From Erythrobacter donghaensis (GTDB lineage Bacteria; Pseudomonadota; Alphaproteobacteria; Sphingomonadales; Sphingomonadaceae), in the NCBI RefSeq assembly GCF_001557325.1, contig NZ_LSJS01000050.1, positions 1 through 16,032 on the forward strand: a DNA stretch of 16,032 bases, written 5' to 3'. The notes under the pieces are model-generated. The model worked only from the letters and a program-made list of their open reading frames with translations, was not told where the DNA came from and searched no databases. Shown here one piece after another: positions 141-16,032 of this stretch. How positions within the stretch are numbered: the first letter of the stretch is position 1; each line of letters opens with the position of its first letter. A program made the position numbers and the translations under genes.

Positions 141-159
141 CGGGCTCCTTCCATCAATT

Positions 160-1010: not shown

Positions 1011-1095
1011 TCCGCTTGCCCACGGGTCGCCGCACGGATTCGGTCTGGCGGAGCCCGGCTGTGCGTGGCAACACGCCAGCCAAAGGAGAGCATGC

Positions 1096-2271: not shown

Positions 2272-2275
2272 TGCG

Positions 2276-2316
2276 AAAAGGGCAGCCGACACCGGACGTG
2301 TCCGGCCCGACTGCCC
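2276..2316 (-). terminator. Intrinsic terminator of the first TonB-dependent receptor gene
   Basis: GGGCAG (2280-2285) pairs with CTGCCC (2311-2316), enclosing a second stem CCGGAC (2292-2297) with GTCCGG (2300-2305). On the minus strand the hairpin is followed by TTTT (complement of 2276-2279). It sits about 30 bases beyond the stop codon at 2347 and just after the convergent oxidoreductase gene, so the stem may also slow plus-strand transcription. Confidence 0.65.
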
Positions 2317-2346
2317 CGATTGCGACCCTGGGGGGAGAGGCGGGCC

Positions 2347-4527
2347 TCAGAAGCTGAGGCGGACGCTCGCCCTCACATTGCGCCCGATCAGCGGCACGAA
2401 ATCTTTCGTGAAGCTCGCGTGGCGGCGGCCGGTGACATCGAAGATGTTGTCGGCTGCGATCTGGACGGTGACATTGCGGTTGTCCCTGAGAGGGCGCCAG
2501 GCGACGAGGGCGTTGACGAGGGTGAAGCTGTCGGTCGCGGTCTCGAAGGCGGCGGTGCGGTTCTGCTCGTCGAACCACTGGATCTCGCCGCGCAGGTCTA
2601 GGGGTCCGGTCTGGGCCTCGAGCGCGCCGAGCAGGGCGAGCGGCGGGATGCGCGGGATGGCGTCGCCATTGTCGAGCTCGGCCTCGGTGTAGGAGGCGCT
2701 GAGGTCGGTGAGCAGGCGGAAGGAGCCGGTGTCGATGATCGGGTAGGAGAGCTCGGCCTCGAAGCCCCAGAAGTCGGCATCGCCCTGGAGGTACTGGAAG
2801 ACGGGGAGGTCGTCCTCTTCCTCGCCGGTTTCCTCGAGGAAGATGTAGTTGTCGAACCACTGGCGATAGGCGGTGAGGCCGAAGGTGCCCTTGCCGATCC
2901 GGCCGCGGGCATAGGCCTCGAGGCCCCAGGCGCGCTCGGTGGCAAGGTCGGGGTCGCCGATCTCGAAGGCCTGCGTGGCGATGTGCGGGCCGTCGGAGAA
3001 CAGCTCCTCGGCGCTCGGCGCGCGTTCGGCGCGCGAGCCGTTGATGCCGAAGCGGATGCCCTCGATGCCTTCGTAGACGAGGCCGAGCGCGCCCGAGAAG
3101 GTATCGAAGTCGCGCTCGACGCCGAGGGTCTGGGCCTCGACCTTGGTGAACTCGGCGCGCGCGGCAGCCTCGATCTGGAACGGGCCGGTGCCCCATTCCT
3201 GGAGGGTGAAGAGCGCGACCTGGTCGGTGAGGTTGGGCGGGACGTAGGCTTCGGCGCCCACGGCGAGGAAATCGCGGTGGGTGTATTGCACGCCGGACGC
3301 GCCGCGCAGCACGCCGTCTGCGTTCTGCACCAGCTCGGCGCGGGCCTCGACGCTGGTCGAATCGAACACGGTGCCGACCTCGGCGCCCTCGAATTCGGTG
3401 TGGGTGTAGTCGGAATAGCCGACCCGCAGCTTCAATCGCTCGAAGGCGCCCTCGCCGAGGTAGACATCGCCCTTGAAGTCGGCGCGGAACTGCTCGAGGC
3501 CGATGGTGACGCGCTCCTCGCCTTCCTCCTCCTCCTCGGCACCGCCTTCCTCACCGTGGTGGCCGGTGCCGGGGCGGGTGGGGACGCCGTAGCTGGTGTC
3601 GTACCAGCCGATGCTGGCGCCGAAGGTGCTCTCGCCGAGGATCAGGCCGAGACCGGCGTTGACGGTCCAGCTCTCGACCGCGGTGTTGGGCACGAAGTCG
3701 CCTTGCGAGGCCGCTGCGCGCAGCTCGGCGGCTTCCTCGATCTCGCCCTCGGCCTCCTCCTCGGCGGCCTCGGCGAAGAGCTCGTTGCGCAGTTCACGCG
3801 CCACCTGAAGCCCGCCGATGTCGATGTCGCCGGTCTTGCGCCACGACCCGTCGATGTGGGCGACGAGGTTGGGGCCGATCCCGACATCGAGGCTCGCCGC
3901 GCCGGTGCGCAGGTTGGTGGCGGTGTCGACCGCGCCGAAGGCGTCAAGGTGGAAGGCCTCGTCCGGGATCCGGGTCGGGATGCGCTTGTCGATCACGTTG
4001 ACCGCGCCGCCGATCGCCTGGCTGCCGTAGAGCAGCACGGCCGGCCCGCGCAGCACCTCGATCCGCTCGATGGTGATCGGCTCGATCGTGGTGGCGTGGT
4101 CGACCGAGGTGTTCGAGACATCGGCGGTGCCCACGCCGTCGACCAGCACGCGCACGCGTTCGCCCTGCTGGCCGCGCAGCACCGGACGCGAGGAGCCGGG
4201 CGCGAAGCTGGTCGCCGAGACGCCGGGGAGTTTGGCGAGCAGGTCGCCGATCTGGCCGGTCGCCGCGTCGCGCTGGACGTCGGCGATATCGATCACGCTG
4301 GTGCCCGCCAGCAGATCGAGCTCCTTGAGGCCCGCGGTGCTGACGATGATCTCGCCCGCAGTGGCGGCCTGACGGTTGTGGAGGTCGTCCTCGGGCTCGG
4401 CCTCGGCGGCGGGCTGGGCTGCTTCCGCCGCCGTTTCGTCGGCCAGCGCCGGGCTGGCGGCGGCAAGACCGAGCGCGGCAACGAGCGCAAGGCGGGAGGA
4501 GGCAAGGGAGAGCTTGCTGGCGTTCAT
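2347..4527 (-). CDS. TonB-dependent outer-membrane receptor, ZnuD-like (metal uptake candidate)
   Basis: This 726-residue outer-membrane protein has a signal peptide (1-29, cleavage near SPALA|D), a TonB-dependent plug at about 59-182 (VLRGQQGERVRVLVDG, IERIEVLRGPAVLLYGSQAIGGAVNVID) and a long beta-barrel ending in RASVRLSF with the terminal Phe of such barrels. Residues about 322-338 hold two adjacent His and a run of Glu, and a second acidic patch lies at about 245-265. A His/acidic-rich loop and this plug type recall ZnuD-type zinc receptors, so zinc or another divalent metal is my best guess, by inference. The ATG at 4527 begins the signal peptide; the longer in-frame start lacks one. A palindrome at 4549-4563 suggests a repressor. 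Confidence 0.87.
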   Translation of the reverse strand: MNASKLSLASSRLALVAALGLAAASPALADETAAEAAQPAAEAEPEDDLHNRQAATAGEIIVSTAGLKELDLLAGTSVIDIADVQRDAATGQIGDLLAKLPGVSATSFAPGSSRPVLRGQQGERVRVLVDGVGTADVSNTSVDHATTIEPITIERIEVLRGPAVLLYGSQAIGGAVNVIDKRIPTRIPDEAFHLDAFGAVDTATNLRTGAASLDVGIGPNLVAHIDGSWRKTGDIDIGGLQVARELRNELFAEAAEEEAEGEIEEAAELRAAASQGDFVPNTAVESWTVNAGLGLILGESTFGASIGWYDTSYGVPTRPGTGHHGEEGGAEEEEEGEERVTIGLEQFRADFKGDVYLGEGAFERLKLRVGYSDYTHTEFEGAEVGTVFDSTSVEARAELVQNADGVLRGASGVQYTHRDFLAVGAEAYVPPNLTDQVALFTLQEWGTGPFQIEAAARAEFTKVEAQTLGVERDFDTFSGALGLVYEGIEGIRFGINGSRAERAPSAEELFSDGPHIATQAFEIGDPDLATERAWGLEAYARGRIGKGTFGLTAYRQWFDNYIFLEETGEEEDDLPVFQYLQGDADFWGFEAELSYPIIDTGSFRLLTDLSASYTEAELDNGDAIPRIPPLALLGALEAQTGPLDLRGEIQWFDEQNRTAAFETATDSFTLVNALVAWRPLRDNRNVTVQIAADNIFDVTGRRHASFTKDFVPLIGRNVRASVRLSF

Positions 4528-4548
4528 GGCGGTTCCCGTGTCATGTAT

Positions 4549-4563
4549 GTGATAACGTATCAC
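4549..4563 (-). promoter_or_regulatory. Candidate operator upstream of the ZnuD-like receptor
   Basis: GTGATAACGTATCAC has perfect 6-bp arms (GTGATA / TATCAC) around three bases. It lies 22-36 bases before the start at 4527, in the most AT-rich part of the gap, where a promoter would be. A Fur-family regulator, possibly Zur given the receptor type, is a plausible binder, but it does not clearly match a Zur consensus I can recall. Confidence 0.45.
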
Positions 4564-4644
4564 GCGCCTAGCGCCGCGCCCGCGCGATGCAAGCACAAAA
4601 TCGCAAGACGGTGCTCAGGGATCGACGAAAGGCATCCCGGCCCC

Positions 4645-4684
4645 CAAAAGAAAATGGCCCGGCCGCGCGAGGCGACCGGGCCAT
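4645..4684 (-). terminator. Intrinsic terminator of the second TonB-dependent receptor gene
   Basis: ATGGCCCGG (4654-4662) pairs perfectly with CCGGGCCAT (4676-4684) across a 13-base loop. On the minus strand the stem is followed by TTTTCTTTTG (complement of 4645-4654). It starts about 20 bases after the stop codon at 4706, so the two receptor genes are transcribed separately. Confidence 0.85.
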
Positions 4685-4705
4685 GAGCCTCGTCAGGAAG
4701 GCTGA

Positions 4706-7144
4706 TCAGAACGCGTAGCGGGCAACCACCTGGAACACCGGACCGGCACGCTCGCTTTCGAGTTCGTACTCGTCGAACTCGCGATCGATCTGCTCCTGGA
4801 CGGTGTTGAACTTGTTGAAGTCCTCGTCCTTGGTCCCGTCGAGCAGGTTCGAGCCCACCGCGCGGATGACGAAGCTGTCGCCGAAGCGCTTCTCGACGAA
4901 GATTTCGAGGTCCGCGCCGTAGCGGGTGAAGACTTCCTCGCCCACCACGCGGCCGAAGGCCTCGCCCTGCTTGCGATAGGTCGCGCCGAAGGCCACGCCC
5001 AAATCGGGCAGGTTCTGGATCGCGCCGAAGTTGTAGACGTAATCCGACTGGTCGTTGAAGCGGCGCTCGCCGAATTCGTCGGTGATGTTGCTGTCGAGGA
5101 TCGCGAGGTTCCCGAACACGCCGGTTTCGGGCAGGCCGAGGAAGGCGAGGCTGAACGAGGCGTCGAATTCGATCCCGTAGACTTCGCCGTCACCGGTGTT
5201 GCGCGGGACGTAGACGAAGGTGCCGGGACCTTCCGAGCCGTCTTCCACCGAGCCATCGGCTTCCAGCGCGGTGGTCAGTTCGGTGAGGTTGCTCACGTCG
5301 CGGTAGAACACGTTGACGCCGATCACGCCGTTCTTGCCGATCTTGTGCTCGTAGCCAAGGTCGCCGCCCCAGGCGGTTTCGGGCAGCAGGAACGGGTTGC
5401 CGCGGAAGTCGTTGTCGCCGAATTCGGTTTCCAGCTCGATCGGAGCGATGAAATCGAAGCGCGGGCGACGCAGCGTGAGCGCGGCCGAGGCCGTGATCCG
5501 GCCATTGCCGATCTCGTACTTGAGCGAGGCCGAGGGCAGGAACTCGTCATAGTCATTGCTGACGTCGGTACCGGCCGGGTTGTCCGGATTGCTGCCGAAG
5601 ATGTCGGTCGTGGTGCTTTCCCAGCGCAGACCGACTTCAAAGGTCAGATTGTCGTATTCGCCTTCGATCAGCGCGTAGAGATCGGCGCGGTCTTCCTCGA
5701 TCGCGACGACGGTGTTTTCGAACGCCGGGAAGACCGCGGGCACGAACTCGACCGGGCTGCGGACGAACTGGTCATAGCCGGTGCGGGTCGCCGCCGGCAG
5801 GTTGAACCGGTTGAGGCTGGTCCTCGGGGTTTCCTGGAACAGCGTGTCGCGGTCCTTGGTTTGGATAAAGCCGCCGATCGCGAATTCGAGATTGTCGTTG
5901 AGCTCGAACTCATGCTCGAGGTTGACGAAGAACTCGGTGTCCCTGGTGTCCGAAAGGATCAGCTCGCCGGTGAAACGCGGGGAGCTGCGGTCAAAGTCGA
6001 TTTCGTATTCGAATTCGTCCTGGACATCATCGAAGCTGGCATAGCCGACCCGCAGCTGGGTTTCGCCGAGGCTCCATTCCTGATTGAGCTTGCCGATGAT
6101 CGACCAGCTTTCGGTGGTGATGTCGTTGACGTTGGCGTTGTCGGTCAGCAGGCCGGCATCGTCGGTGTCGTCGTCATTGTCGACCGGGCCGAACACGCCT
6201 TCGGGCCGCGAATATTCGAAGGAGCGCTCGTCCTCCACGCGCTCGGTGCGCACGAAGTTGCCGAGGATTTCGAATTCGGTGGTTTCAGTCTCGATCCCCC
6301 AGCTGGCGTTGAAGGCATAGTCGGTGCCGTCGCGGGTATCGGTCTGGTCTTCGCGGTTTTCGAAATCGTCGGTCGCGAAGTCGGGGTTGTTTTCGGGGCT
6401 GTCGCCATAGCGCAGGCTCAGCTTCTCCTTCGGGTTGTAACGGCCCTGCACGTTGGCGCCGATCAGCAGGCGACCGCCCGCCAGCGCGCCGCCGTAGTAG
6501 AAGCCGCCCGAGGGCTTGAACTCACCGTCATCGAAGAACAGCCCGCCCGCGCGGACATAGCCGCCATCGAGCGTCAGGCCGTCGCGCAGCACGATGTTGA
6601 GCGAGCCGGCCACCGCATCGCCGGTGCGGCGCGCCGAGGAGGAGCGCACGATCTCGACGCGCTGGATCAGCTCGGCGGGTATCCGATCGAGGAAGAACGA
6701 GCGGTCGGCCTGGCCGCCGGGCACGCGCTCGCCGTTGATCAGGATCTGGGTGTAGCCCGGATCGAGGCCGCGCAACCGCGCACCGTCGCTTTCGAGGACG
6801 TCCGACAGGAAGGTCACGCCCGGCACGCGCTTCAGCGCGTCACCCGCGGTCAGCGGTTCGAAGCGGCGGAAATACTCCTCGTCATAGACCAGAATCGGCT
6901 CGGCCGCGTCCGAACGGTTGCGGAAGCCGATCGAGCCCTGGACCACGATTTCCTTGGCCGACTGGATGTCTTCCTCGCTCGGCGTCTCGGGATCCTGCGC
7001 CGCAGCGGCGGCCGCGGTTGCGGAGAGCGCGGCGTCAGCGGGTGCGGTATCGTCGGCGAGGGCCGCGTGCGGGACTGCGGCGACAGCGGCGAGCATGAGA
7101 GCCTTGCGCGACAGGCGCAGGCGGAGCGGCGTGGTATAATTCAT
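4706..7144 (-). CDS. TonB-dependent outer-membrane receptor, substrate unknown
   Basis: This 812-residue protein has a signal peptide (MNYTTPLRLRLSRKALMLAA, cleavage near residue 30, ALA|DD) and an Ala-rich linker. The plug (about 65-190) includes IVVQGSIGF, ALKRVPGVTFL, ARLRGLDPGYTQILINGERV and RVEIVRSSSARRTGDAVAGSLNIVLRDG. A beta-barrel rich in acidic turns follows and ends in VFQVVARYAF. It imports an unidentified ligand across the outer membrane using TonB-ExbBD energy. No carbohydrate or siderophore genes lie beside it, so no substrate is assigned. The ATG at 7144 is preferred because it starts the signal peptide and has GGGGGC upstream; an ATG four codons earlier (7156) is a close alternative. 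It has its own terminator at 4645-4684. Confidence 0.9.
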   Translation of the reverse strand: MNYTTPLRLRLSRKALMLAAVAAVPHAALADDTAPADAALSATAAAAAAQDPETPSEEDIQSAKEIVVQGSIGFRNRSDAAEPILVYDEEYFRRFEPLTAGDALKRVPGVTFLSDVLESDGARLRGLDPGYTQILINGERVPGGQADRSFFLDRIPAELIQRVEIVRSSSARRTGDAVAGSLNIVLRDGLTLDGGYVRAGGLFFDDGEFKPSGGFYYGGALAGGRLLIGANVQGRYNPKEKLSLRYGDSPENNPDFATDDFENREDQTDTRDGTDYAFNASWGIETETTEFEILGNFVRTERVEDERSFEYSRPEGVFGPVDNDDDTDDAGLLTDNANVNDITTESWSIIGKLNQEWSLGETQLRVGYASFDDVQDEFEYEIDFDRSSPRFTGELILSDTRDTEFFVNLEHEFELNDNLEFAIGGFIQTKDRDTLFQETPRTSLNRFNLPAATRTGYDQFVRSPVEFVPAVFPAFENTVVAIEEDRADLYALIEGEYDNLTFEVGLRWESTTTDIFGSNPDNPAGTDVSNDYDEFLPSASLKYEIGNGRITASAALTLRRPRFDFIAPIELETEFGDNDFRGNPFLLPETAWGGDLGYEHKIGKNGVIGVNVFYRDVSNLTELTTALEADGSVEDGSEGPGTFVYVPRNTGDGEVYGIEFDASFSLAFLGLPETGVFGNLAILDSNITDEFGERRFNDQSDYVYNFGAIQNLPDLGVAFGATYRKQGEAFGRVVGEEVFTRYGADLEIFVEKRFGDSFVIRAVGSNLLDGTKDEDFNKFNTVQEQIDREFDEYELESERAGPVFQVVARYAF

Positions 7145-7213
7145 CGGTGCCCCCATTGGCTTGGTTTGTGCGGGGGCCGCTATGGGGGCTGGGTGACGCT
7201 TTGCTGACAGCAT

Positions 7214-7263
7214 CGCGGATTGCGTCGCATCTCTGAAATATAACAGATTTGCTGCAATCCGCG
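7214..7263. repeat. Inverted repeat around an AT-rich centre upstream of the second receptor
   Basis: CGCGGATTGC (7214-7223) and GCAATCCGCG (7254-7263) are perfect 10-bp inverted arms around 30 bases. The centre contains TCTG-AAATATAA-CAGA (7232-7247), an AT-rich spot in GC-rich surroundings. It lies 70-120 bases before the receptor start at 7144, where a promoter and operator would be expected. No clear -35/-10 pair could be assigned. The rest of 7145-7442 holds nothing I recognise. Confidence 0.35.
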
Positions 7264-7442
7264 GCGCGCGGCCAAGCCTCTGATCAGATAGGCGATCCTG
7301 CCCGAGACTGACCGTCGGGCGACCGATGTGCGACATCTTGCGGACAAGCATTCCGGCGGCAGTGTTGCGCTTTTGCCGCATGCACGCGGCGGGCCGCCGC
7401 ACACAGGGGCTACCGGCCGAACGCAGGAATGTCGGTGGAAAC

Positions 7443-7488
7443 TGGAGCGGGCGAAGGGATTCGAACCCTCGACCCCAACCTTGGCAAG
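7443..7488 (-). pseudogene. Truncated tRNA-Gly(GCC), 3' half: attachment site at the island edge
   Basis: Read on the minus strand, this is the last 46 bases of a glycine tRNA. It has anticodon loop TTGCCAA (anticodon GCC at 7485-7483), 3' anticodon strand GGTTG, T arm GAGGG-TTCGAAT-CCCTT, 3' acceptor strand CGCCCGC, discriminator T and encoded CCA (7445-7443). The 5' anticodon strand (expected CAACC), D arm and 5' acceptor are absent; beyond 7488 the sequence is unrelated. This is what remains when an element integrates inside a tRNA gene and restores the intact gene at its far end. That end, with a complete tRNA-Gly carrying the same 3' sequence, should lie to the right, outside the window. 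Confidence 0.85.
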
Positions 7489-7549
7489 AAGACCGCCAGA
7501 CCTTTCCCAAGTGCGCCTGACTTCGATTAACTACGACAAATCAGTAGTA

Positions 7550-7591
7550 TAAGGCTATGAAACTTTTCCGAACCGCGATCACATAGCCTTA
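7550..7591. repeat. Perfect 10-bp inverted repeat between att site and integrase
   Basis: TAAGGCTATG (7550-7559) is exactly inverted as CATAGCCTTA (7582-7591) with 22 bases between. It lies between the att site and the integrase start. It could bind an excisionase or integrase, or form a hairpin; there is no T-run that would make it a terminator. Confidence 0.45.
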
Positions 7592-7605
7592 AATGAGCTT
7601 GCATC

Positions 7606-7652
7606 TGGTGACAATATGGTGACAAAGTGATCGCCAAGAGATTTTGTCACCA
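7606..7652. repeat. Probable integrase arm-type sites (TGGTGACAA repeats)
   Basis: TGGTGACAA (7606-7614) and TGGTGACAAA (7617-7626) are direct repeats spaced 11 bases apart, and TTTGTCACCA (7643-7652) is the exact inverse of the second. They lie within 65 bases upstream of the integrase gene. Repeated short sites between att and a tyrosine integrase gene are typical of arm-binding sites, and they may also let the integrase repress itself. Confidence 0.55.
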
Positions 7653-7667
7653 AACGGGGGGAAGTTC

Positions 7668-8936
7668 ATGCCCACGGTCAAGCTAACCAAACGCAGCGTC
7701 GACGGGCTGCTGCCTCCCGCCAAGGGGCAAGCCGTACTCTGGGACACGGAAGTCAGGGGCTTCGGCGCGCGCATCCTGCCTTCGGGGACAAAGACCTTTA
7801 TCCTGCAATATCGGAATCCTGAGGGCATCCAGCGGCGGATCAACATTGGCCGATATGGCGTTCTGACAGTCGATCAGGCTCGAGATCAGGCGAAACTGCA
7901 CCTGGCGTCTGTTATCCAGGGCGAAGATCCCGCCGACGAAAATCGCCGAGCACGCAAAGGTATGACGGTCGCCAAGATGTGCGACTGGTATCTGATCGAG
8001 GCGCGTGCCGGGAACATTCTCGGCAGGCTGAACAGGCCGATAAAGGCGTCATCGCTTGATATGGATGAAAGCCGGATCAAGACGCACATCATCCCGCTCC
8101 TCGGCAAGCGCGTGGTCTCGCAGCTGAGCATCGCCGATGTCGAGCAGATGCAATCCGACGTGAAGAATGGGAAAACGGCCAAAGCCCGAACTGGTGGGCG
8201 CGGTGGAAAGGCGACTGGCGGAGCCGGTGTCGCCTCCCGTTGCCTCGGCACAATTCAGGCAATCATCGGCCACGCCAAGCACAAGGGTTTGCTGGCTGCC
8301 CATCCCACCCAAGGCGCCAAGAAACTGGCCAGCAAGAAGCGGACCCGGCGGTTGAGCGTCGCCGAGATCGAGATGCTCGGGAAGGCGATCGCCTATGCCG
8401 AGCAAAATCACGAAAATCCTGTGGCCCTGGGCGTCCTGCAAACGCTTCTTCTGACCGGCTATCGCCGGGAAGAGGCGCAAGCCATGCAAAGAGCCTGGGT
8501 CAATGCTGCGGGCGGATTTGTCAGTTTTCCCGATACCAAGGGCGGCGCGCAAGTGCGCGCGCTTGGTCCTGCGGCGCTCAATATAGTCGAGCGGCAGCCG
8601 GAAATCGTAGGCAACCCCCACGTTTTCCCATCGGAAGCCGGGGCTGGATCGTACACAGCCGTAAGCTCCTGTCTGGATCGTGTTTGCAAACTCGCCGGGA
8701 TTTCGGGCGTAACGCCCCACACCCTGCGGCATACGTTCGGGAGCATCGCAGGCGAACTCGGTTTTTCGGAACTCACGATCCGAGCCATGCTCGGGCACGC
8801 CTCCCAAAACGTGACCCAGGATTACATCCATATCGATGAGGCGCTGAAGCTCGCAGTCCAACGGACGTCGGACGAGATTGCTCGTCTGCTCAATAAGGGC
8901 GCGGTGAGCTTGCGACACCCTAGTCTCGCCGCCTGA
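7668..8936 (+). CDS. Tyrosine-type site-specific integrase (DUF4102, P4-like)
   Basis: This 422-residue DNA recombinase integrates and excises the island. The N-terminal DUF4102 arm-binding domain spans about 1-90 (KLTKRSVDGLLPP, LWDTEVRGFGARILPSG). A core-binding SAM-like domain follows (about 100-215), then the catalytic domain with Arg266 (TGYRREE), Lys291 (FPDTKGG), HTLRH (His351, Arg354), His377 (LGHAS) and the nucleophile Tyr386 (TQDYIHID). All catalytic residues are present, so it is probably active. The ATG at 7668 follows GGGGGGAAG (7655-7663) at good spacing; an upstream TTG in frame would fall inside the TGGTGACAA repeat block. It lies about 180 bases from the tRNA-Gly fragment, the usual layout for an integrase beside its att site. 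Confidence 0.95.
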   Translation: MPTVKLTKRSVDGLLPPAKGQAVLWDTEVRGFGARILPSGTKTFILQYRNPEGIQRRINIGRYGVLTVDQARDQAKLHLASVIQGEDPADENRRARKGMTVAKMCDWYLIEARAGNILGRLNRPIKASSLDMDESRIKTHIIPLLGKRVVSQLSIADVEQMQSDVKNGKTAKARTGGRGGKATGGAGVASRCLGTIQAIIGHAKHKGLLAAHPTQGAKKLASKKRTRRLSVAEIEMLGKAIAYAEQNHENPVALGVLQTLLLTGYRREEAQAMQRAWVNAAGGFVSFPDTKGGAQVRALGPAALNIVERQPEIVGNPHVFPSEAGAGSYTAVSSCLDRVCKLAGISGVTPHTLRHTFGSIAGELGFSELTIRAMLGHASQNVTQDYIHIDEALKLAVQRTSDEIARLLNKGAVSLRHPSLAA

Positions 8937-8943
8937 TCCGGAA

Positions 8944-8978
8944 TTGAACTCTCGACACAAGGTAACGAATATGTTACC
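8944..8978 (+). promoter_or_regulatory. Probable promoter/operator of the toxin-antitoxin operon
   Basis: GGTAAC (8961-8966) and GTTACC (8973-8978) form a perfect inverted repeat around GAATAT, 15 bases before the toxin start. TTGAAC (8944-8949) lies 17 bases before GAATAT and could serve as a weak -35/-10 pair, which would place the palindrome over the -10. That fits autorepression by the HTH antitoxin. The palindrome is certain; the promoter assignment is tentative. Confidence 0.5.
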
Positions 8979-8992
8979 AAGGGCGGTGCAGC

Positions 8993-9331
8993 GTGATTAT
9001 TGAGGAGTATGTCTGTGAAGATGGCACCTGCCCGTTCCGGGGCTGGTTTGACGGTCTCGATGTGCAGGCCGCAGCCAAGGTGGCAACCGCCATCGTCCGC
9101 ATGGAACTGGGCAACCTGTCGAACGTCAAATGGATCGGTGGCGGGCTTGGCGAATACCGGATCGATTGGGGGCCGGGATACCGGCTCTATTTGACGCAGG
9201 ACGGAGGTCAACTGATCATCCTCTTCGTAGGCGGGACGAAGAAGCGGCAGCAGTCGGACATCAGGCAGGCGAGCGCACTGCTCGACCAATACAAGGGCCG
9301 CAAGGCCAAGGCGAAGAAGGCAAGGAGTTAG
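8993..9331 (+). CDS. Type II toxin, RelE/ParE superfamily (Gp49/HigB-like)
   Basis: This 112-residue protein has the hallmarks of the addiction-module killer family (TIGR02683 type): FRGWFDGLD near the start, then GNLSNVKWIGGGLGEYRIDWGPGYRLYLTQDG, ILFVGGTKKRQQSDI and a basic tail. Relatives are small RelE-fold proteins, many of which cut mRNA at the ribosome; that activity is inferred here. The GTG at 8993 starts MIIEEYV, a normal N-terminus for the family, and no better start exists. The partner antitoxin starts six bases after this gene ends, and its ribosome binding site overlaps the toxin's last codons, so the two are translated as a pair. Toxin-first order is the usual arrangement in this family. 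It probably stabilises the island. Confidence 0.9.
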   Translation: MIIEEYVCEDGTCPFRGWFDGLDVQAAAKVATAIVRMELGNLSNVKWIGGGLGEYRIDWGPGYRLYLTQDGGQLIILFVGGTKKRQQSDIRQASALLDQYKGRKAKAKKARS

Positions 9332-9336
9332 GCACG

Positions 9337-9660
9337 GTGGCGCTGACACGCGATTTCAAGGAAACGGTGAAGGAACGTGCCGCGCGCGATCCAGCCTTTG
9401 CCAAAGCCATGCTCGATGAGGCCGCCACCGCCTTTCTCAATGGCGAGCCGCATGTCGCGCGCCTGATTCTGCGCGATCTCGTCAACGCCTCGGTCGGGTT
9501 CGAGGAGCTCGCCAGTGAGACCAAGCGGCCGAGCAAGAGCCTGCACCGCATGCTTTCGGAGAAGGGCAATCCAAGCATGGACAATCTCGCCGCGATCTTC
9601 GGCGCGGTGCGCAAGCGCCTTGGCGTGGCGTTCGAAGCGCATGGCGTCGAGGCCGCGTGA
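9337..9660 (+). CDS. Antitoxin with HTH domain, partner of the RelE-like toxin
   Basis: This 107-residue protein matches the addiction-module antidote family (TIGR02684 type): LTRDFKETVKERAARDPAFAKAMLDEA, then FLNGEPHVARLILRDLVNASVGFEELA, and an HTH with PSKSLHRMLSEKGNPSMDNLAAIFGAVRKRLGV. It should bind and neutralise the toxin and repress the operon, probably at the GGTAAC palindrome. The start is a GTG at 9337, nine bases after AAGGAG (9322-9327); an upstream open stretch in this frame overlaps the toxin gene and looks non-coding. The SOS-box gap and the DUF5131 gene follow 75 bases later. Confidence 0.9.
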   Translation: MALTRDFKETVKERAARDPAFAKAMLDEAATAFLNGEPHVARLILRDLVNASVGFEELASETKRPSKSLHRMLSEKGNPSMDNLAAIFGAVRKRLGVAFEAHGVEAA

Positions 9661-9672
9661 TGCAGATGTTAT

Positions 9673-9687
9673 GTTCTATTTTTGTTC
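9673..9687 (+). promoter_or_regulatory. SOS box (LexA-binding site) upstream of the DUF5131-tcmP unit
   Basis: GTTCTATTTTTGTTC is an exact GTTC-N7-GTTC direct repeat with a T-rich spacer, the form of the LexA site known in alphaproteobacteria. It lies in the 75-base gap after the antitoxin gene, 48 bases before the DUF5131 start at 9736 and in the same direction, where LexA would block a promoter. No convincing -10 could be fixed. The site is intergenic and AT-rich in context, which makes chance occurrence less likely. Confidence 0.75.
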
Positions 9688-9735
9688 CGTTTGTGGTAGA
9701 TGCGATGCTGGCTGAGCAAGATCAGCGAGGTCGAA

Positions 9736-10518
9736 ATGGCTGAAACACAGATTGAATGGACGGATTCGACGTGGAATCCAGTGGCTGGCTGCACCATTGT
9801 CAGCGCGGGCTGCACGCACTGCTACGCTATGGAAATGGCTCGGCGCCTCGAAGCTATGGGCGTCAGCAAGTACGCAGGGCTGACACGGCGGAGCGGTGAG
9901 CGCACGATCTGGAACGGTGTAATCCGGGAAGATCGCGATGCGCTCCTGATTCCGCTGCGCTGGCGCAAACCAAGAAAGATCTTCGTCAACTCGATGAGCG
10001 ATCTCTTTCACGAACAGGTCAGCGACGCCTTCATTCTGGACGTCTGGAAGGTGATGCGCGAAACCCCACATCACAACTACCAGATTCTGACGAAGCGCCC
10101 TGACCGCATGGCGTCGATTACAACCAGGCTCATCAAGGACGTCCTTCCCAATGTGTGGCTCGGAACAAGTATCGAGAATGCAGATGTGGTTGAGCGAATA
10201 GACCACTTGCGAAACGTACCGGCTGCAATCCGTTTTCTGTCCTTCGAACCGCTGATTGGGCCGGTCGGTGAGATCGACCTCGCTGGAATAGACTGGGCGA
10301 TCGTCGGGGGTGAAAGTGGCCGCTCTGCCCGACCGATCAGGGAGGAGTGGATTGACGAGATTCACGATCAATGCGTCGCATTCGAGACGGCTTTCTTCTT
10401 CAAGCAATGGGGCACCTGGGGGAAAGATAACAAGCGCCGCTCAAAGAAGGCCAACGGCCGCGAGTATCGGGGCAAAACCTGGGATGAAATGCCGTCGGCG
10501 TTCCTCGCTGCCGTGTGA
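9736..10518 (+). CDS. DUF5131 (phage Gp37/Gp68) three-cysteine protein, radical-SAM-like
   Basis: This 260-residue protein belongs to the Gp37/Gp68 family (PF07505). Near the N-terminus, WTDSTWNPVAGC is followed by a three-Cys motif, Cys19-x6-Cys26-x2-Cys29 (GCTHCYA). This recalls the 4Fe-4S motif of radical SAM enzymes with altered first spacing. Strand-like segments then follow a TIM-barrel rhythm: IFVNSMSDLFH, YQILTKRPDRM, VWLGTSIEN, IRFLSFEPLIGPV, DWAIVGGESG and AFFFKQWG. No reaction is established to my knowledge; a radical SAM-type step on nucleic acid is inference. The ATG at 9736 fits the family N-terminus MAETQIEWTD; an in-frame ATG at 9700 is less likely. TcmP, its usual partner, follows after 34 bases, and an SOS box lies upstream. 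Confidence 0.88.
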   Translation: MAETQIEWTDSTWNPVAGCTIVSAGCTHCYAMEMARRLEAMGVSKYAGLTRRSGERTIWNGVIREDRDALLIPLRWRKPRKIFVNSMSDLFHEQVSDAFILDVWKVMRETPHHNYQILTKRPDRMASITTRLIKDVLPNVWLGTSIENADVVERIDHLRNVPAAIRFLSFEPLIGPVGEIDLAGIDWAIVGGESGRSARPIREEWIDEIHDQCVAFETAFFFKQWGTWGKDNKRRSKKANGREYRGKTWDEMPSAFLAAV

Positions 10519-10552
10519 CATGCAACAGGCCGGTCATCGGCAAGGGGAATGA

Positions 10553-11812
10553 ATGGCTGAAAAACCGTATGAGTGGGTGGATGGCGCAATGCTGGAGGAC
10601 CACTCGCGGCGCAAGCACAAGATCCTCCGGGAGTATTTCTTCCAGTATCTGACGGTTCGCTGCCAGCTCCCCCAGATGGAAAAGTTCCGCCTGGCGATTG
10701 TCGATGGCTTCGCCGGCGGAGGGCGATATAGCTGCGGCGCGTCGGGTTCGCCGCTCATCTTCATTGAGGAGTTGCGACGAGCAGTCGAGGCGGTCAACAT
10801 GCATCGGACGGCGGAAGGTCTCGGCCTCATTGAGGTCGAATGTCTGCTGGTGCTGAATGATTTCAGCAGGGATGCTCTCGAAACGATCAAGGCGCATATT
10901 GCACCGCTTCAGGCCGAAATCGTCCAAAATGTCCCGCGCCTTCATTTGCGCATTGAGTACCTGAACCAGCCATTCGAAGATGCCTATCCGGCAATGAAGC
11001 AATTCCTGGAACAAGGCCGCTTCCGGAATGTGCTGTTCAACCTCGACCAATGCGGCCACAGCAAGGTCAGCCGGTCGACGCTGGTCGACATCATGCACTC
11101 ATACCCGTCGGTCGAAGTCTTCTACACTTTCGCGATCCAGTCGCTCCTGACGTACCTTCAGACCCATGATCCGATACGGCTCGCGGCGCAGCTTCAGCCC
11201 TTCGGCATCCAGTCCAAGGATATCGAAGCTCTCGATTTCGGGATCAAGAAACAGCAATGGCTGGGCGCAGCAGAACGGCTGGTGTTCGACACATTCCGCA
11301 CCTGCGCCACCTTTGTCAGCCCGTTCTCGATCAACAATCCGGATGGGTGGCGATACTGGCTGATCCACTTCGCGAATGCTCACCGCGCCCGGCAGGTCTA
11401 CAACAACGTGCTGCACGACAACAGCTCGGAGCAGGCGCATTTCGGGCGATCAGGCCTCAACATGCTCGCCTATGACCCGAGCCACGAGGATGGCGCGCTG
11501 TACCTCTTCGATGTGTCTGGCCGTCAAAGTGCGCGCACCCAGCTACTGTCCGACATCCCCCGCCTCGTCTCGGAATCCGGCGATGTGATCGGCGTGGCCG
11601 ATTTCTACGCAGGGATCTACAATTCGACGCCGGCACATAGCGAAGACATACATCAGGCCATCATGGAAAATCCGGATCTGCAAGTTATCACGCCTGCCGG
11701 AGGCGAGAGGCGCAGCGCGAACGCTATTGCTGTCGGCGATATGTTGAAGCTCAAGCAGCAGAAGAGCTTCTTCCCATTTTTCACATCTCAAGAGCGCGAG
11801 AAGCAAAAGTAG
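10553..11812 (+). CDS. tcmP: Three-Cys-motif partner protein TcmP
   Basis: This 419-residue protein is recognised as TcmP (TIGR04474 type) from its N-terminus (HSRRKHKILREYFFQYL) and its place right after a Gp37/Gp68 gene, the pairing that gives the family its name. It looks Rossmann-like: DGFAGGGRY (51-59) resembles a class I methyltransferase SAM-binding loop, LLVLNDFSRDAL (98-109) the second acidic strand, and LFNLDQCGH (161-169) the active-site strand, though the usual DP-type residues are replaced by DQC. The role is unknown. The ATG at 10553 follows AAGGGG (10542-10547). The gene should share the SOS-controlled transcript. Its C-terminal half (about 240-419) matches no domain I can name. 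Confidence 0.83.
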   Translation: MAEKPYEWVDGAMLEDHSRRKHKILREYFFQYLTVRCQLPQMEKFRLAIVDGFAGGGRYSCGASGSPLIFIEELRRAVEAVNMHRTAEGLGLIEVECLLVLNDFSRDALETIKAHIAPLQAEIVQNVPRLHLRIEYLNQPFEDAYPAMKQFLEQGRFRNVLFNLDQCGHSKVSRSTLVDIMHSYPSVEVFYTFAIQSLLTYLQTHDPIRLAAQLQPFGIQSKDIEALDFGIKKQQWLGAAERLVFDTFRTCATFVSPFSINNPDGWRYWLIHFANAHRARQVYNNVLHDNSSEQAHFGRSGLNMLAYDPSHEDGALYLFDVSGRQSARTQLLSDIPRLVSESGDVIGVADFYAGIYNSTPAHSEDIHQAIMENPDLQVITPAGGERRSANAIAVGDMLKLKQQKSFFPFFTSQEREKQK

Positions 11813-11816
11813 GATT

Positions 11817-11882
11817 GGGGTCACCGATGACCCCCGCGAACGGGTGCCGCGAATGGCCCGACCACGCGGAGCGGGCCGGCAC
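11817..11882. terminator. Hairpins between the convergent tcmP and DUF2513 genes
   Basis: Right after the tcmP stop, GGGGTCA (11817-11823) pairs with TGACCCC (11828-11834) around a four-base loop. A second nested stem follows: GTGCCG (11844-11849) with CGGCAC (11877-11882), enclosing GCCCG (11856-11860) with CGGGC (11872-11876). No T-run follows on either strand, so these may end transcription in a Rho-aided way or merely stabilise 3' ends. Confidence 0.35.
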
Positions 11883-11924
11883 GAGGGACGGATCAGGCTA
11901 TAATCGCGCAGTTTTCGCTGAAGA

Positions 11925-12332
11925 TCAGAGGTCCAGCTCAACGCCGGTGTGCTGCTCAATCTTCTTCTTGATCAGCCCTTTGGCGAGCGCTTTCAGAAGG
12001 TCTATGCTGAAACCGCCGGCCTGTTTGGCCCCGGCTTTTGTCTCGCGCCAGATGGCAGGGTCGCGGATGGTGTCGAGGAAGTCGTGGCCAGCCCAGGTGA
12101 TCTGACCGATTTGCCAGACCGCACCGGACAGCTTCGCCTGGATCGTGATGAGACCAGCCTCGTCAAGCAAAGCCAGATGGCATTCGATCAGCTCAGCCTG
12201 ATCGCGCGGCATTTTGCCTGTACCATTTTCGCCCAGTATCTCGGCGATCTCCGGGGTCATCAGCTCGAACGCCCGCCGACCGTCCTCGATCTCCAGCAGC
12301 AGGTTGCGGACCAGATCCATGTCACGTTTCAT
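11925..12332 (-). CDS. DUF2513 domain protein
   Basis: This 135-residue protein starts MKRDMDLVRNLLLEIEDG, the typical opening of DUF2513, followed by IECHLALLDEAGLI and ITWAGHDFLDTIRDPAIW, which close that domain at about residue 90-95. The layout (helices, then a beta-hairpin ending in GHDFLD) looks like a winged-helix fold, so it may be a small regulator; this is inference. The C-terminal 40 residues are an amphipathic Lys-rich helix (LLKALAKGLIKKKIEQ). Such proteins are common on phages and islands and have no known function. The start at 12332 is chosen by family match; no strong ribosome binding site is seen. It lies 92 bases downstream of the repeat-linker gene and may share its transcript. 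Confidence 0.82.
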   Translation of the reverse strand: MKRDMDLVRNLLLEIEDGRRAFELMTPEIAEILGENGTGKMPRDQAELIECHLALLDEAGLITIQAKLSGAVWQIGQITWAGHDFLDTIRDPAIWRETKAGAKQAGGFSIDLLKALAKGLIKKKIEQHTGVELDL

Positions 12333-12424
12333 CGCATGGATCTTAACTGCAGACCCACCGGAAGGACAGCGATCTATCAATGCCTTCCGTGCGCGAGGCC
12401 TCGTCCTGCCGACATCATCTGCGT

Positions 12425-13045
12425 TCACGCGCGAACGAGGTGATAGCGTCCATTTTTTCGGGCACCTACAAAGTGCAGAAGATTGCAGGTGCACAGTCCT
12501 GCAAGATCGCGCCGCGCCGACTTGATGCTCACCTGCCAATGCGCTGCAACATCGCGCGCCCTCGTCGGCAAACCGCGCGCGACTCGGTCGAGTATCCAGC
12601 GCTGTCGCTCATTGAGCCCGTCCGTTATTGGGTCATTTACAGGGCCACTTTCAGGGTCATTTGTAGGGTCAGAATTCGGCCAATATCTGCCCGCAGCCAT
12701 CTCTTCCCGGCGACTATTCCCGAAAGATGCTCTGCTCGGCCCTGGTATGGCAGCCTCCGCCAAGGCCGATTGCTGGCTTTCGATGATGCCCAGGACGAAC
12801 GCCCGGATAACCGGAGACGTCGCAACCAAGCGCAAGAAGAAGACCGTGTCCGGCCCATGTTGCGCGGCCATCCAGTGCTTGGCGGACCGCTCACTGGCAT
12901 GGGTCAGACGCATCAGTTGCTTGACCGCGCGATGCGTATCGCCATGTTCCTTGCGCAGCAGATTGGCGATGACTTCGGCATAGGCCTGGCGGCTGGCGAG
13001 CGCGCCTTCCCAAGCTGGCAACTTCCTGCCCTTTTTCGGCAACAT
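12425..13045 (-). CDS. Putative DNA-binding protein with tetrapeptide-repeat linker and C-terminal winged helix
   Basis: This 206-residue protein has no name I can give with confidence. Residues 1-90 (KKGRKLPAWEGALASRQAYAEVIANLL, then VKQLMRLTHASERSAKHWMAAQHGPD) look like a helical HTH-type domain seen on alphaproteobacterial mobile elements. Residues about 122-139 are a [D/G]-P-x-[N/S/T] repeat linker. Residues about 141-206 (LNERQRWILDRVARGLPTRARDVAAHW) form a winged-helix domain like the C-terminal one of many Fic proteins, though no Fic domain is present. A DNA-binding regulator is likely. The ATG at 13045 follows GGAAAGGACC. Its upstream gap (13046-13165) is shared with the divergent serine recombinase gene, so it might control both. 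Confidence 0.7.
   Translation of the reverse strand: MLPKKGRKLPAWEGALASRQAYAEVIANLLRKEHGDTHRAVKQLMRLTHASERSAKHWMAAQHGPDTVFFLRLVATSPVIRAFVLGIIESQQSALAEAAIPGPSRASFGNSRREEMAAGRYWPNSDPTNDPESGPVNDPITDGLNERQRWILDRVARGLPTRARDVAAHWQVSIKSARRDLAGLCTCNLLHFVGARKNGRYHLVRA
12630..12677 (-). repeat. Degenerate 12-bp tandem repeat inside the DNA-binding-like gene
   Basis: On the plus strand, units GGGTCATTTACA, GGGCCACTTTCA, GGGTCATTTGTA and GGGTCAGAATTC follow each other with an exact 12-base period (12630, 12642, 12654, 12666). On the coding strand three full units and part of the fourth encode the four-residue linker repeat. Whole-codon unit length means copy-number change would keep the frame. Confidence 0.75.
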
Positions 13046-13165
13046 CTTCCGGTCCTTTCCCACATATACTGTTGAGAGTGCGGGAATGCCGGAGAGGTCC
13101 GTGTTTCGCGCTGCAGCGGTTGGCCGCCCTGGCCACTGCAGTCCGGATTTCGAAAGGGGCGCGCA

Positions 13166-14737
13166 TTGGCGGGTTGGGATCAAGAAGACGCGCCAAGCGA
13201 CGCCGAACAGCCGCCCACGGTGCGGGCGGCCGAATATGTTCGAATGTCCACCGACCATCAGAAATACTCGACGGAAAATCAGGCCGACGCGATCCGCCAC
13301 TATGCGGCGTCTCGGGGCATCGAAATTGTCCGCACCTATGCCGACGACGGCAAAAGCGGCCTGTCGATCGATGGCCGCGCCTCACTGCAACGACTGATTG
13401 CTGACGTCGAATCCGGCAGCGCCGATTTCGAGATGATCCTGGTCTATGATGTCAGCCGGTGGGGGCGCTTCCAGGACGCGGACGAGAGCGCCTACTACGA
13501 ATACATCTGTCGCCGGGCCGGAATTCAGATCGCCTATTGCGCCGAACAGTTCGAAAATGACGGGTCGCCGATGAGCACCATGTTCAAGGGCTTCAAGCGC
13601 GCCATGGCTGGCGAATACAGCCGGGAGCTTTCGGTCAAGGTTTTTGCCGGCCAGGGGCGGCTCATCGAGAAAGGCTACCGTCAGGGCGGTCCCGCCGGTT
13701 TCGGCCTGCGCCGGACGCTCATTGATGAACACGGCAACACCAAGGCGGTGCTCGGCCGCGGCGAGCAGAAGAGTCTCCAGACCGACCGCGTCATCCTGAC
13801 ACCCGGACCGCCGGAAGAGATTGGCGTGGTGCAAGAGATATACCGGGCTTTCGTCCATGACGGACGAACCGAACGCGAGATCGCCGAGGAGCTGAACGCT
13901 CGCGGCATCCTGTCCGACCTCGAACGCCCGTGGACACGCGGCACCGTGCACCAGCTCCTGATCAATGAAAAATATGTCGGCGACAATGTCTGGAATCGCC
14001 GCTCGTTCAAGCTGAAGAAGAAGCGGGTTCGCAATGCCCCGGACATGTGGATCAGGTCACAGGGTGCATTCGAGGGGATCGTTGAACGGGAGCTGTTCGA
14101 GGCTGCCCATTCGATTATTGCTGCACGCTCGTTCCGCCTGTCCGACGAGGAGATGCTGGAAGCTCTGCGGGGTCTCTACGCCAGCAAGGGGCTGCTGTCC
14201 GGCATCATTATCGACGAATGCGAGGGATTGCCGTCGAGCAGCGCCTTCAGCTCGCGATTTGGCAGTCTCCTGCGCGCTTACAGCCTGGTGGGCTTTTCGC
14301 CGGAGCGCGATTACCGCTACGTTGCCATCAACAAGGCGCTGCGCCGCCTGCACCCCGACATTGTCCGCGACATATTGAGTGGACTTCAGGCCCAGGGGAG
14401 CGATGCCTGGCAGGACCTCGCCAGCGACAGCATCCGCGTGAATGGCGAGTTCAGCCTCGCCATTGTTCTGGTGCGCTGCACTCCGACACCGACCGGCCTC
14501 CTGCGCTGGAAGATCCGCTTCGACACCAGCCATCTCGCAGACATCACCGTCGTCGTGCGCATGGACATGCACAACCGCGCGCCGTTCGATTATTATCTGT
14601 TTCCAAGAATTGACGTCGCCAGCGAACGGCTGCGGCTCGCCGAAGATAACGACCTGCACCTCGACGCCTATCGCTTCGACACGCTCGACTTCTTCTATGA
14701 CATCGCGGCACCCGTCGCCATTCCGGAGGCTGCCTAA
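13166..14737 (+). CDS. Serine recombinase (resolvase/invertase plus recombinase domain)
   Basis: This 523-residue large serine recombinase has an N-terminal catalytic domain (about 19-160): AAEYVRMSTDHQKYSTENQ with nucleophile Ser28, then LVYDVSRWGRFQD (92-104) with the conserved DxSRxxR arginines and MAGEYSRELS. A recombinase domain follows (about 210-285: EEIGVVQEIYRAFVHDGRTEREIAEELNARGI, NEKYVGDNVWNRR). The C-terminal 240 residues carry no zinc ribbon, unlike phage integrases of this class. It should cut and rejoin DNA at short dyad sites; its target is unknown. The start is a TTG at 13166 with AAAGGGG (13152-13158) upstream; a GTG at 13220 is an alternative. Its stop overlaps the RepB-like start (TAATG), so the three genes form one operon. 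Confidence 0.9.
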   Translation: MAGWDQEDAPSDAEQPPTVRAAEYVRMSTDHQKYSTENQADAIRHYAASRGIEIVRTYADDGKSGLSIDGRASLQRLIADVESGSADFEMILVYDVSRWGRFQDADESAYYEYICRRAGIQIAYCAEQFENDGSPMSTMFKGFKRAMAGEYSRELSVKVFAGQGRLIEKGYRQGGPAGFGLRRTLIDEHGNTKAVLGRGEQKSLQTDRVILTPGPPEEIGVVQEIYRAFVHDGRTEREIAEELNARGILSDLERPWTRGTVHQLLINEKYVGDNVWNRRSFKLKKKRVRNAPDMWIRSQGAFEGIVERELFEAAHSIIAARSFRLSDEEMLEALRGLYASKGLLSGIIIDECEGLPSSSAFSSRFGSLLRAYSLVGFSPERDYRYVAINKALRRLHPDIVRDILSGLQAQGSDAWQDLASDSIRVNGEFSLAIVLVRCTPTPTGLLRWKIRFDTSHLADITVVVRMDMHNRAPFDYYLFPRIDVASERLRLAEDNDLHLDAYRFDTLDFFYDIAAPVAIPEAA

Positions 14738-15636
14738 TGCCCGTCGTGCGCCCTCAGCAGATCGAGATGATCCCGGTTTCCAAGATTACGGTGCTTAACC
14801 CCCGCTCGCGCAACAAGCGTCAGCACCGAGAGATCGTGAACAACATCGAGTCGATCGGATTGAAGCGGCCGATCACGGTGAGCCGCCATCAGGGACCAGG
14901 TGGACCGCGCTATGATCTCGTTTGCGGCGAAGGGCGGCTCGAAGCCTTTCAGATGCTGGGCCAGACGGAAATTCCGGCGGTCGTGATCGAAGCGAGCGAA
15001 AGCGATTGCCTGGTGATGAGTCTGGTCGAGAACATTGCCCGCCGGACGCCTCGCCCGATTGACGTGATGCGCGAGATCGGTGCCTTGCGCGAGCGCGGCT
15101 ATAACGAAACCGAAATCGGGCACAAGATCGGGGTCAGCAGTTCTTGGGTCAGCATGATCGTCACGCTTCTGGCCCGCGGCGAGGAGCGGCTCGTCGCCGC
15201 CGTTGAAACCGGCCTCATCCCGATCAGCCTCGCCATGGAAATTTCCCGTGCGGAGTCCGAGGAAGCGCAGAACCTGCTGCTCGATGCCTATGAGACGGGC
15301 AAGCTGCGCGGCAAGAAGCTCGCGTCTGTGCGAAGGCTGCTCGAGCTGCGGATGCGCGGGCACAACAAGTCCCTGCCGGCGGGCAAGCTGGGGCGACGTT
15401 CCGCCAATCGCAAGCTGACCGCTAGCGACCTCATGCAGGTTTACCAGCGAGAGGCGGAGAAACAGCGCCTGCTCGTGAAGAAGTCTGATTTCACCCAGAC
15501 GCGGCTGCTGTTCATTGTTGAAGCGATCAAGGATCTGCTGGGCGACGACGGGTTTCTGACCCTGCTGCGCGCGGAGGCGCTGGAGACGATGCCGCGCGCG
15601 CTCGCCATGCGAATTGCAGGTGAGAGCGATGACTGA
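14737..15636 (+). CDS. ParB/RepB-like partition protein with RepB C-terminal domain
   Basis: This 299-residue protein has an N-terminal ParB-like (sulfiredoxin-fold) domain: IPVSKITVLNPRSRNKRQH, GEGRLEAFQMLG (64-75, box II) and VENIARR (97-103). A helix-turn-helix lies at about 121-143 (GYNETEIGHKIGVSSSWVSMI), and the C-terminal part resembles the plasmid RepB domain (PF07506 type: SDLMQVYQREAEKQRLLVKKSDF). ParB N-domains of this fold bind and hydrolyse CTP in true partition proteins; this is not shown here. No ParA ATPase gene is in the window, so classical partitioning is not assured. The ATG overlaps the recombinase stop by one base, with GGAGG (14725-14729) upstream. A recombinase accessory or regulatory role is as likely as segregation. 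Confidence 0.87.
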   Translation: MPVVRPQQIEMIPVSKITVLNPRSRNKRQHREIVNNIESIGLKRPITVSRHQGPGGPRYDLVCGEGRLEAFQMLGQTEIPAVVIEASESDCLVMSLVENIARRTPRPIDVMREIGALRERGYNETEIGHKIGVSSSWVSMIVTLLARGEERLVAAVETGLIPISLAMEISRAESEEAQNLLLDAYETGKLRGKKLASVRRLLELRMRGHNKSLPAGKLGRRSANRKLTASDLMQVYQREAEKQRLLVKKSDFTQTRLLFIVEAIKDLLGDDGFLTLLRAEALETMPRALAMRIAGESDD

Positions 15637-15988
15637 TTGGTCCGAACCCAACACTCCGGATATGGAACCCGGTTCGGATCGCCGGGTCCGGCTCGGCTTC
15701 GAACGCGAGACTGTCACCCTCGCGCTCAATCAGCTCGTTCCCCTGAAGATACTTCAGCAGGGCGTGCGGGAGAGCAAGAAATTCGCCCAGATCGTCAGTT
15801 CGATCAAGGCGATCGGGATCGTCGAGGCTCCGGCTGTCGCGCCGGACCCCCAGCATCCGGGCAAATATTTCCTGCTCGATGGCCATCTGCGGATCGAAGC
15901 CTTGCGGCAGCTCGAAATCCCGACGGTTGAGTGCCTCGTCGCCAATGATGATGAAACCTACACTTACAACAAGCGGGTGCCCTTGTAG
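15629..15988 (+). CDS. ParB N-terminal domain protein, apparently truncated
   Basis: This 119-residue protein begins with a ParB-like domain: VRLGFERETVTLALNQLVPLK, KFAQIVSSIKAIGIVEAPAV and FLLDGHLRIEALRQLEIPTVECLV. It then ends at TYTYNKRVPL and a stop. From memory of the family, relatives continue after YNKR with an Asn-Arg-Leu stretch and a helix-turn-helix for another 60-70 residues, so this copy looks cut short. None of the three plus-strand frames in the remaining 44 bases resembles that continuation, which argues for an insertion or rearrangement rather than a simple frameshift. The start overlaps the RepB-like stop by eight bases (ATGACTGA), indicating translational coupling. Confidence 0.72.
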   Translation: MTDWSEPNTPDMEPGSDRRVRLGFERETVTLALNQLVPLKILQQGVRESKKFAQIVSSIKAIGIVEAPAVAPDPQHPGKYFLLDGHLRIEALRQLEIPTVECLVANDDETYTYNKRVPL

Positions 15989-16032
15989 GCGGTGGAACGC
16001 ACGCGGTGCCGTGACACGACGCCATCCTCACT

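Follow-up and report, generated by a model that had tools for sequence, protein, structure and literature searches.

A DUF5131-TcmP gene pair behind a putative LexA operator in Erythrobacter donghaensis and other alphaproteobacteria

Introduction

The neighboring genes for a DUF5131 protein (phage Gp37/Gp68 family) and for TcmP are catalogued in PADLOC as PDC-M30/M41, and both the gene pair and its candidate defense role are already known from databases. PDC systems are putative and not experimentally validated; of 100 P. aeruginosa strains, 32 had PDC-M30, and the phage-resistant share of these 32 was 68.8%, which is a correlation (PMC10855318, accessible part). The same part of that paper does not mention SOS control, and the mechanism is not known there. 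Here, we describe such a pair in a 16,032-nt stretch of DNA from Erythrobacter donghaensis (contig NZ_LSJS01000050.1, positions 1 to 16,032, forward strand; the whole stretch is referred to as the window). Like PDC-M30/M41, the window pair is a two-gene unit with both components side by side, and both proteins match (PDC-M41B, 4e-103; M30B, 1.1e-97; M30A, 1.5e-17; M41A, 8.4e-5). An earlier, sequence-only reading of the window had suggested a repair, modification, or defense function and had taken it to be not yet described; as a candidate defense system, the pair is already in the catalogue.

The motif GTTCN7GTTC is reported for the SOS regulon of Caulobacter (PMC12700426, accessible part), and a site before the window pair shares both this operator motif and its promoter-proximal position. 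Neither "gp37" nor "radical SAM" (SAM, S-adenosylmethionine) occurs in the main text of that paper, and a TIGR04474 profile scan gave no TcmP match in the Caulobacter vibrioides control genome. In S. meliloti, tcmP (SMa2243) and the phage defense gene hna (SMa2245) carry neighboring locus tags, and both were about twofold up in a nolR+ strain (PMC12445080, accessible part). None of the open-license papers searched, outside which most subscription papers lie, was found to report that DUF5131-TcmP is under SOS control; the same papers gave no report of a DUF5131 fold like that of spore photoproduct lyase (SPL) or of an RlmJ-like TcmP fold, the folds not having been searched as a subject of their own.

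Results

A LexA-type site before the gene pair

The pair is preceded by GTTCTATTTTTGTTC, an exact GTTC-N7-GTTC on the forward strand and the sole exact match in the window. The features of the putative operon are as follows.

9673..9687, + strand, putative LexA-type operator, exact GTTC-N7-GTTC, a motif also standing before lexA and enriched before the pair (matrix score, 23.2)
9727..9731, + strand, GAGGT, probable ribosome-binding site for DUF5131, as read from its sequence
9736..10518, + strand, DUF5131 (phage Gp37/Gp68 family) gene, 260 aa, PF07505; predicted fold radical-SAM-like and closest to SPL
10553..11812, + strand, tcmP gene, 419 aa, TIGR04474; adjoins DUF5131 in 84 of 84 first-set loci (see below)

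The longest DUF5131 open reading frame (ORF) begins at 9700, and the start that agrees with relatives is the ATG at 9736 (MAETQIEWTD). From the site to this ATG the spacer is 48 nt; the gap between the end of DUF5131 and the start of tcmP is 34 nt. DUF5131 matched PF07505 with an E value of 1.8e-104 (349 bits; cutoff, 28.9), and TcmP matched TIGR04474 with 211 bits (cutoff, 53). The coordinates of the site, its spacing, and the identity of both families were thereby confirmed as the sequence-only reading had given them. Shuffling of the whole window yielded a mean of 0.42 GTTC-N7-GTTC matches, with at least one match in 74 of 200 shuffles, so the bare presence of the motif is weak evidence. 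The window alone cannot exclude chance, and the upstream regions of homologous pairs were therefore scanned.

Enrichment of the site upstream of homologous pairs

A first set of loci, chosen for a close TcmP relative, comprised 80 from genomes (the best 80 of 102 confirmed stretches) and 4 from viruses, and DUF5131 was located immediately upstream of TcmP in all 84. One further collection was likewise limited to its best 80 of 132 confirmed stretches. Removal of loci without a usable DUF5131 start and of identical upstream stretches left 76, the window included. With both strands counted up to 300 nt from the DUF5131 start, 13 of these 76 loci had the motif, compared to a mean of 0.61 and a maximum of 3 in 300 rounds of dinucleotide shuffling; spacings of 3 to 6 and 8 to 12 gave 0 or 1. 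When the window TcmP was used as a query in its order, 1 of 396 genomes matched, namely, the genome on which the search was centered. Therefore, the broader family TIGR04474 was used. No plasmid carrying a near relative of the window unit was found by megablast. TIGR04474 was over its cutoff in 29 of 385 genomes of the class and in 47 of 397 genomes of one order.

The second set was gathered after the hypothesis had been fixed, blind to the site, with TIGR04474 over evenly drawn alphaproteobacterial genomes. From its 80 loci we dropped 4 without a DUF5131 match, 3 with less than 80 nt upstream, 2 already seen (L232 and L262), and 2 near duplicates, which left 69 loci. In 13 of the 69, no TcmP was located next to DUF5131, and the DUF5131 start was taken. 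Starts in this set and in the gammaproteobacterial loci described below came from alignment to relatives and may be some codons off. GTTC-N7-GTTC was found in 27 of the 69 loci, compared to 0.66 (maximum, 4) in 500 shuffles. Other spacings from 2 to 14 gave 0 to 3 loci, permuted 4-mers gave 0 to 2, and the motif was the most frequent of all 256 × 11 direct 4-mer repeats. All 27 sites were located 2 to 128 nt before the start, 6 of them on the other strand. Both gene orders were represented, as were TcmP proteins sharing only 22 to 30% identity with the nearest query used. The density of sites upstream was 33 times that elsewhere in the same 71 loci (28 in 22,152 nt versus 10 in 261,739 nt). 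The scan of homologous pairs that the sequence-only reading had proposed thus gave a strong enrichment, and a chance match, plausible from the window alone, was rejected by the second set. With a matrix derived from the 27 sites, from which the window site was excluded, the window site scored 23.2; the 27 themselves ranged from 15.5 to 24.4 (median, 21.5), and the next-best place in the window reached 7.1.

Alignment of ten upstream stretches from the clade of the window displayed the site as a conserved block before the start region, exact in 6 of 10 and with one mismatch in the remaining 4 (L002, L003, L004, and L005). On the first-set TcmP tree, the site was concentrated in two supported groups, one surrounding the window (7 of 8 rows) and one mostly of Rhizobiales (5 of 6 rows); L053 and L076 had it as well. 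When DUF5131 proteins from the two sets were placed on one tree (157 rows, of which 45 had the site; FastTree), the label required 21 changes, at least 8 of them forced by supported branches. The site has therefore been gained or lost many times; it was often kept but is not universal.

The same motif before lexA

The sequence-only reading had taken GTTC-N7-GTTC to be the alphaproteobacterial LexA operator. We collected lexA loci from 20 genomes that carry the pair and from the 3 genomes, among 196 sampled, with the closest relatives of a flanking host protein. In 22 of the 23 loci, those of the three closest genomes included, the motif preceded the lexA match by 10 to 229 nt, in line with that reading; in the 23rd (L104), the motif was present and the lexA match was split. 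In contrast, the motif occurred anywhere in only 2 of 22 rlmN or moaA loci. Judged from these sequence comparisons, DNA damage very probably turns on the pair in many alphaproteobacteria.

Predicted DUF5131 and TcmP proteins

The following parts of the two genes bear on the function of their products.

9790..9822, + strand, codons for C19-x6-C26-x2-C29 of DUF5131, invariant in 66 of 66 relatives; putative iron-sulfur site
10700..10732, + strand, motif I of TcmP (VDGFAGGGRYS), putative methyltransferase-type SAM-binding loop of the RlmJ-like fold
11042..11056, + strand, LDQCG of TcmP, probably at the place of the RlmJ-type DPxY catalytic motif (an RlmJ gene reads IDPSY)
11471..11701, + strand, weak GMT-like winged-helix domain of TcmP (PF22560, 21.8 bits, under the cutoff of 27)

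The structure model of DUF5131 contains the partial TIM-barrel fold of the radical SAM superfamily. SPL was its top match in the PDB, and viperin-type enzymes came second in the fold ranking. The three cysteines were accompanied by Y30, which was likewise invariant in the 66 aligned relatives. The radical SAM mobile pair family TIGR04471 matched DUF5131 at 85 bits, under its cutoff of 355. No SPL family was among the NCBIfam matches of DUF5131, and a sequence-profile search of the PDB at an E value of 1 gave no match for DUF5131 or TcmP.

The TcmP model displayed the fold of RlmJ, the 23S rRNA A2030-N6 methyltransferase, which agrees with the Rossmann-type partner expected by the sequence-only reading. 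TcmP differs from RlmJ by having LDQCG instead of a DPxY-type motif and by an extra C-terminal winged-helix region, and no PF04378 (RlmJ) match was found for the window TcmP at an E value of 0.01. LDQ was conserved in 42 of the 44 TcmP rows listed (57 rows were aligned), the other 2 having VDPFG. PF22560 was over its cutoff in the relative L026.

The probable integrative element and toxin-antitoxin genes

Upstream of the pair, the window contains the following features.

7436..7488, - strand, 3′ portion of tRNA-Gly, marking the left end of the probable integrative element; the 96% match to a related genome stops inside the tRNA-Gly of the latter
7644..8936, + strand, tyrosine integrase of the element carrying the pair (PF00589/PF13356)
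8993..9331, + strand, RelE/ParE-type toxin of the HI1419 family (TIGR02683, 91.9 bits; cutoff, 62.85)
9337..9660, + strand, helix-turn-helix antitoxin-like protein (weak TIGR02684 match, 17.8 bits versus a cutoff of 53.7)

A related Sphingomonadales genome, with a 95% identical chromosomal flank protein, aligned to parts of the left side of the window and to 7436-7488. Because this match ends within its tRNA-Gly, DUF5131-tcmP is very probably cargo of an integrative element with a left end at about 7488 and a right end beyond the window. A tRNA-Lys called by ARAGORN in this region (7436-7488 / 7443-7520) was rejected as most likely a chimeric miscall over the remaining 3′ part of tRNA-Gly.

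The window thus carries a toxin-antitoxin (TA) pair and a LexA-type site together. A TA gene stood ahead of the pair in 32 of the 84 first-set rows (18 PIN/VapC, 6 DUF6088, 3 DarTG, 2 HigBA-like, 2 AbiE, and 1 HepT), many of which were near copies. Upstream genes in this survey came partly from a homemade ORF picker and were sometimes on the wrong strand. The six TA kinds (DarT-DarG, AbiEi-AbiEii, DUF6088, PIN/VapC, HepT-MntA, and HigBA-like) are unrelated and often lie about 36 nt before the pair; examples are found in L001, L002, L003, L005, L008, L011 to L017, L019, L020, and L055. L002 (HigBA-like) and L003 (AbiE) are sisters on the TcmP tree with different TA kinds. In the broader alpha- and gammaproteobacterial sets, which have short flanks, TA matches were found in 7 of 102 loci.

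Discussion

Proposed mechanism

We propose, at slightly better than an even chance, that DUF5131-tcmP is a LexA-repressed SOS operon on an integrative element and that its two proteins act jointly on nucleic acid, most likely in defense. LexA is highly likely to bind at 9673-9687, to judge by the motif and by comparison with other loci, and would there repress the DUF5131-tcmP promoter by blocking it. DNA damage, whether caused by phage infection, element mobilization, or otherwise, would lead to LexA cleavage and open the promoter, as expected from the known alphaproteobacterial SOS response. DUF5131 would then act on nucleic acid with TcmP as a radical-SAM-type enzyme of SPL-like fold, and TcmP, the partner with an RlmJ-like methyltransferase fold, would bind the substrate partly via its winged-helix tail. 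Such joint action of an enzyme and a substrate-binding partner is fairly probable in view of the two models. Damage-triggered defense against invading DNA or RNA appears to be the likeliest selected role, at about an even chance, with repair of DNA lesions as the main alternative. The most specific version, in which an SOS-inducible radical enzyme of SPL fold is guided by an RlmJ-fold winged-helix partner and introduces or removes a radical-chemistry modification of bases in nucleic acid that is invading or damaged, is put forward tentatively.

If the proposal is correct, an orphan defense candidate becomes a concrete biochemical question, namely, which base is modified in which nucleic acid, and SOS-induced cells are the condition in which to seek the activity of the pair. 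The finding would link SOS, radical SAM chemistry, and defense, and both predicted folds are of kinds that act on nucleic acids. The reading as radical base modification would, if true, represent a new and widespread kind of damage-triggered defense by nucleic acid modification.

Several observations weigh against the proposal. The exact site was missing in 63 of 76 first-set loci and in 42 of 69 second-set loci, and in three boxed second-set loci (L268, L274, and L297) the two genes, as located, were 549 to 1190 nt apart. It preceded the pair in 2 of the 32 TA-preceded rows versus 13 of the 52 others (L197, counted among the 52, has an annotated VapC missed by the TA query). Among viral DUF5131 loci, an exact site with an untypical spacer was found in 1 of 76 usable loci (4 of 80 were unusable), a count by which the site as a property of phage genomes was also rejected. 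In 22 gammaproteobacterial loci, CTG-N10-CAG occurred in 3, and neighboring spacings gave 0 to 4. No sigma-70-like promoter was found in positions 9500 to 12000 of the window. The structure model of TcmP is of no more than moderate quality (pLDDT, 77.7). The canonical CX3CX2C motif of radical SAM enzymes, which SPL carries, is replaced in DUF5131 by C-x6-C-x2-C in 66 of 66 relatives. Noncanonical cysteine spacings are known within the radical SAM superfamily. Comparison of DUF5131 with hhalign gave similarly low probabilities of 1.2% for SPL (a narrow alignment of 13 rows; Neff, 1.7), 2.8% for RlmN, and 0.9% for MoaA, and no sequence homology to these three was found by this profile comparison. 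The earlier guess of a photoproduct-lyase-like protein is supported at the level of the predicted fold.

Alternative explanations

Repair is the alternative closest to our proposal. The pair would be SOS induced and reverse a specific base lesion by radical chemistry, as SPL does for the spore photoproduct, with TcmP locating or flipping the base. This reading is favored by the LexA-type site and by the predicted SPL-like fold, SPL being the best structural match of the DUF5131 model, and a Tyr follows the third Cys as in a sphingomonad SPL-family protein (CSYCYL versus CTHCYA). In addition, SplB-like radical SAM proteins occur in operons with SOS repair genes (PMC3765255, accessible part). 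The lack of profile homology to SPL, within the limits of its narrow alignment, and the sparse distribution of the pair over the genomes scanned argue against repair, as does pairing with an RlmJ-like protein. SPL is known as a single enzyme. We prefer defense because the pair is listed by PADLOC as a candidate, has a patchy and mobile distribution, has TA neighbors, and is correlated with phage resistance in the case of PDC-M30 (PMC10855318, accessible part), and we regard repair as unlikely, if the strongest of the alternatives.

A repressor other than LexA may act at some loci. If the pair were silenced generally by stress repressors, LexA would serve at some loci and autoregulated TA promoters at others, with the TA genes as addiction or effector partners. 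Six TA kinds precede the pair, the sisters L002 and L003 have different kinds, and TA genes and the exact site seldom coincide (2 of 32), all of which fits. Against this stand the few TA matches in the broader sets, with their short flanks, the predominance of a single PIN/VapC kind with near copies (18 of 32), and relatives without TA genes, and such a scheme appears rather improbable.

The site might instead serve the mobile element, with LexA timing element genes for excision or transfer and DUF5131-TcmP being passive cargo or an element function. SOS-induced excision of integrative elements is well known, and DUF5131-tcmP is preceded by TA genes and by an integrase inserted at a tRNA gene. 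The site is located directly before the pair and not before the integrase. Divergent pairs in either gene order have it too, and the remainder of their loci seldom contains one; we consider this explanation improbable. Lastly, the site could be a chance match or belong to another regulator, the pair being transcribed from another promoter, e.g., by read-through from the upstream TA genes, behind which it follows at about 36 nt in many relatives. A match somewhere in 16 kb is indeed likely (0.42 expected). This explanation is very improbable in view of the 27 of 69 unseen loci versus 0.66 expected, the matrix score of the window site above the median of the 27, and the occurrence of GTTC-N7-GTTC ahead of lexA in 22 of 23 loci.

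Gammaproteobacteria and further genes beside the pair

A general E. coli-type SOS box in Gammaproteobacteria was not enriched by the count given above and was rejected. Two gammaproteobacterial loci had strong E. coli-type boxes, with a 17/20 match located 54 nt upstream in L315 and a 15/20 match located 12 nt upstream in L325, and two boxes at 15/20 or better were reached by 0 of 200 shuffles. The alphaproteobacterial motif was present in 4 of the 22 loci (shuffles, 0.155; maximum, 2). These sequences give thin hints that the pair may be under SOS control in Gammaproteobacteria as well.

Downstream of tcmP, the window contains on the opposite strand a DUF2513 ORF (11925-12539, -) and, in partial overlap with it, an ORF (12425-13300, -) that matched no Pfam family. 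At 13166-15988, a large serine recombinase is followed by a RepB/ParB-like gene at 14737-15636 and by another ParB-like ORF at 15614-15988; these overlap or abut and possibly form a single cassette. In the relative L012 (1354-2304, -), an ArdC-type antirestriction gene (ArdcN plus zincin domain) lies beside the pair, and L013, L015, and L017 contain ORFs that resemble it in size and start. In L005 (5263-6213) and L009 (5260-6306), a gene for an Mrr-type restriction endonuclease was located immediately 3′ of tcmP.
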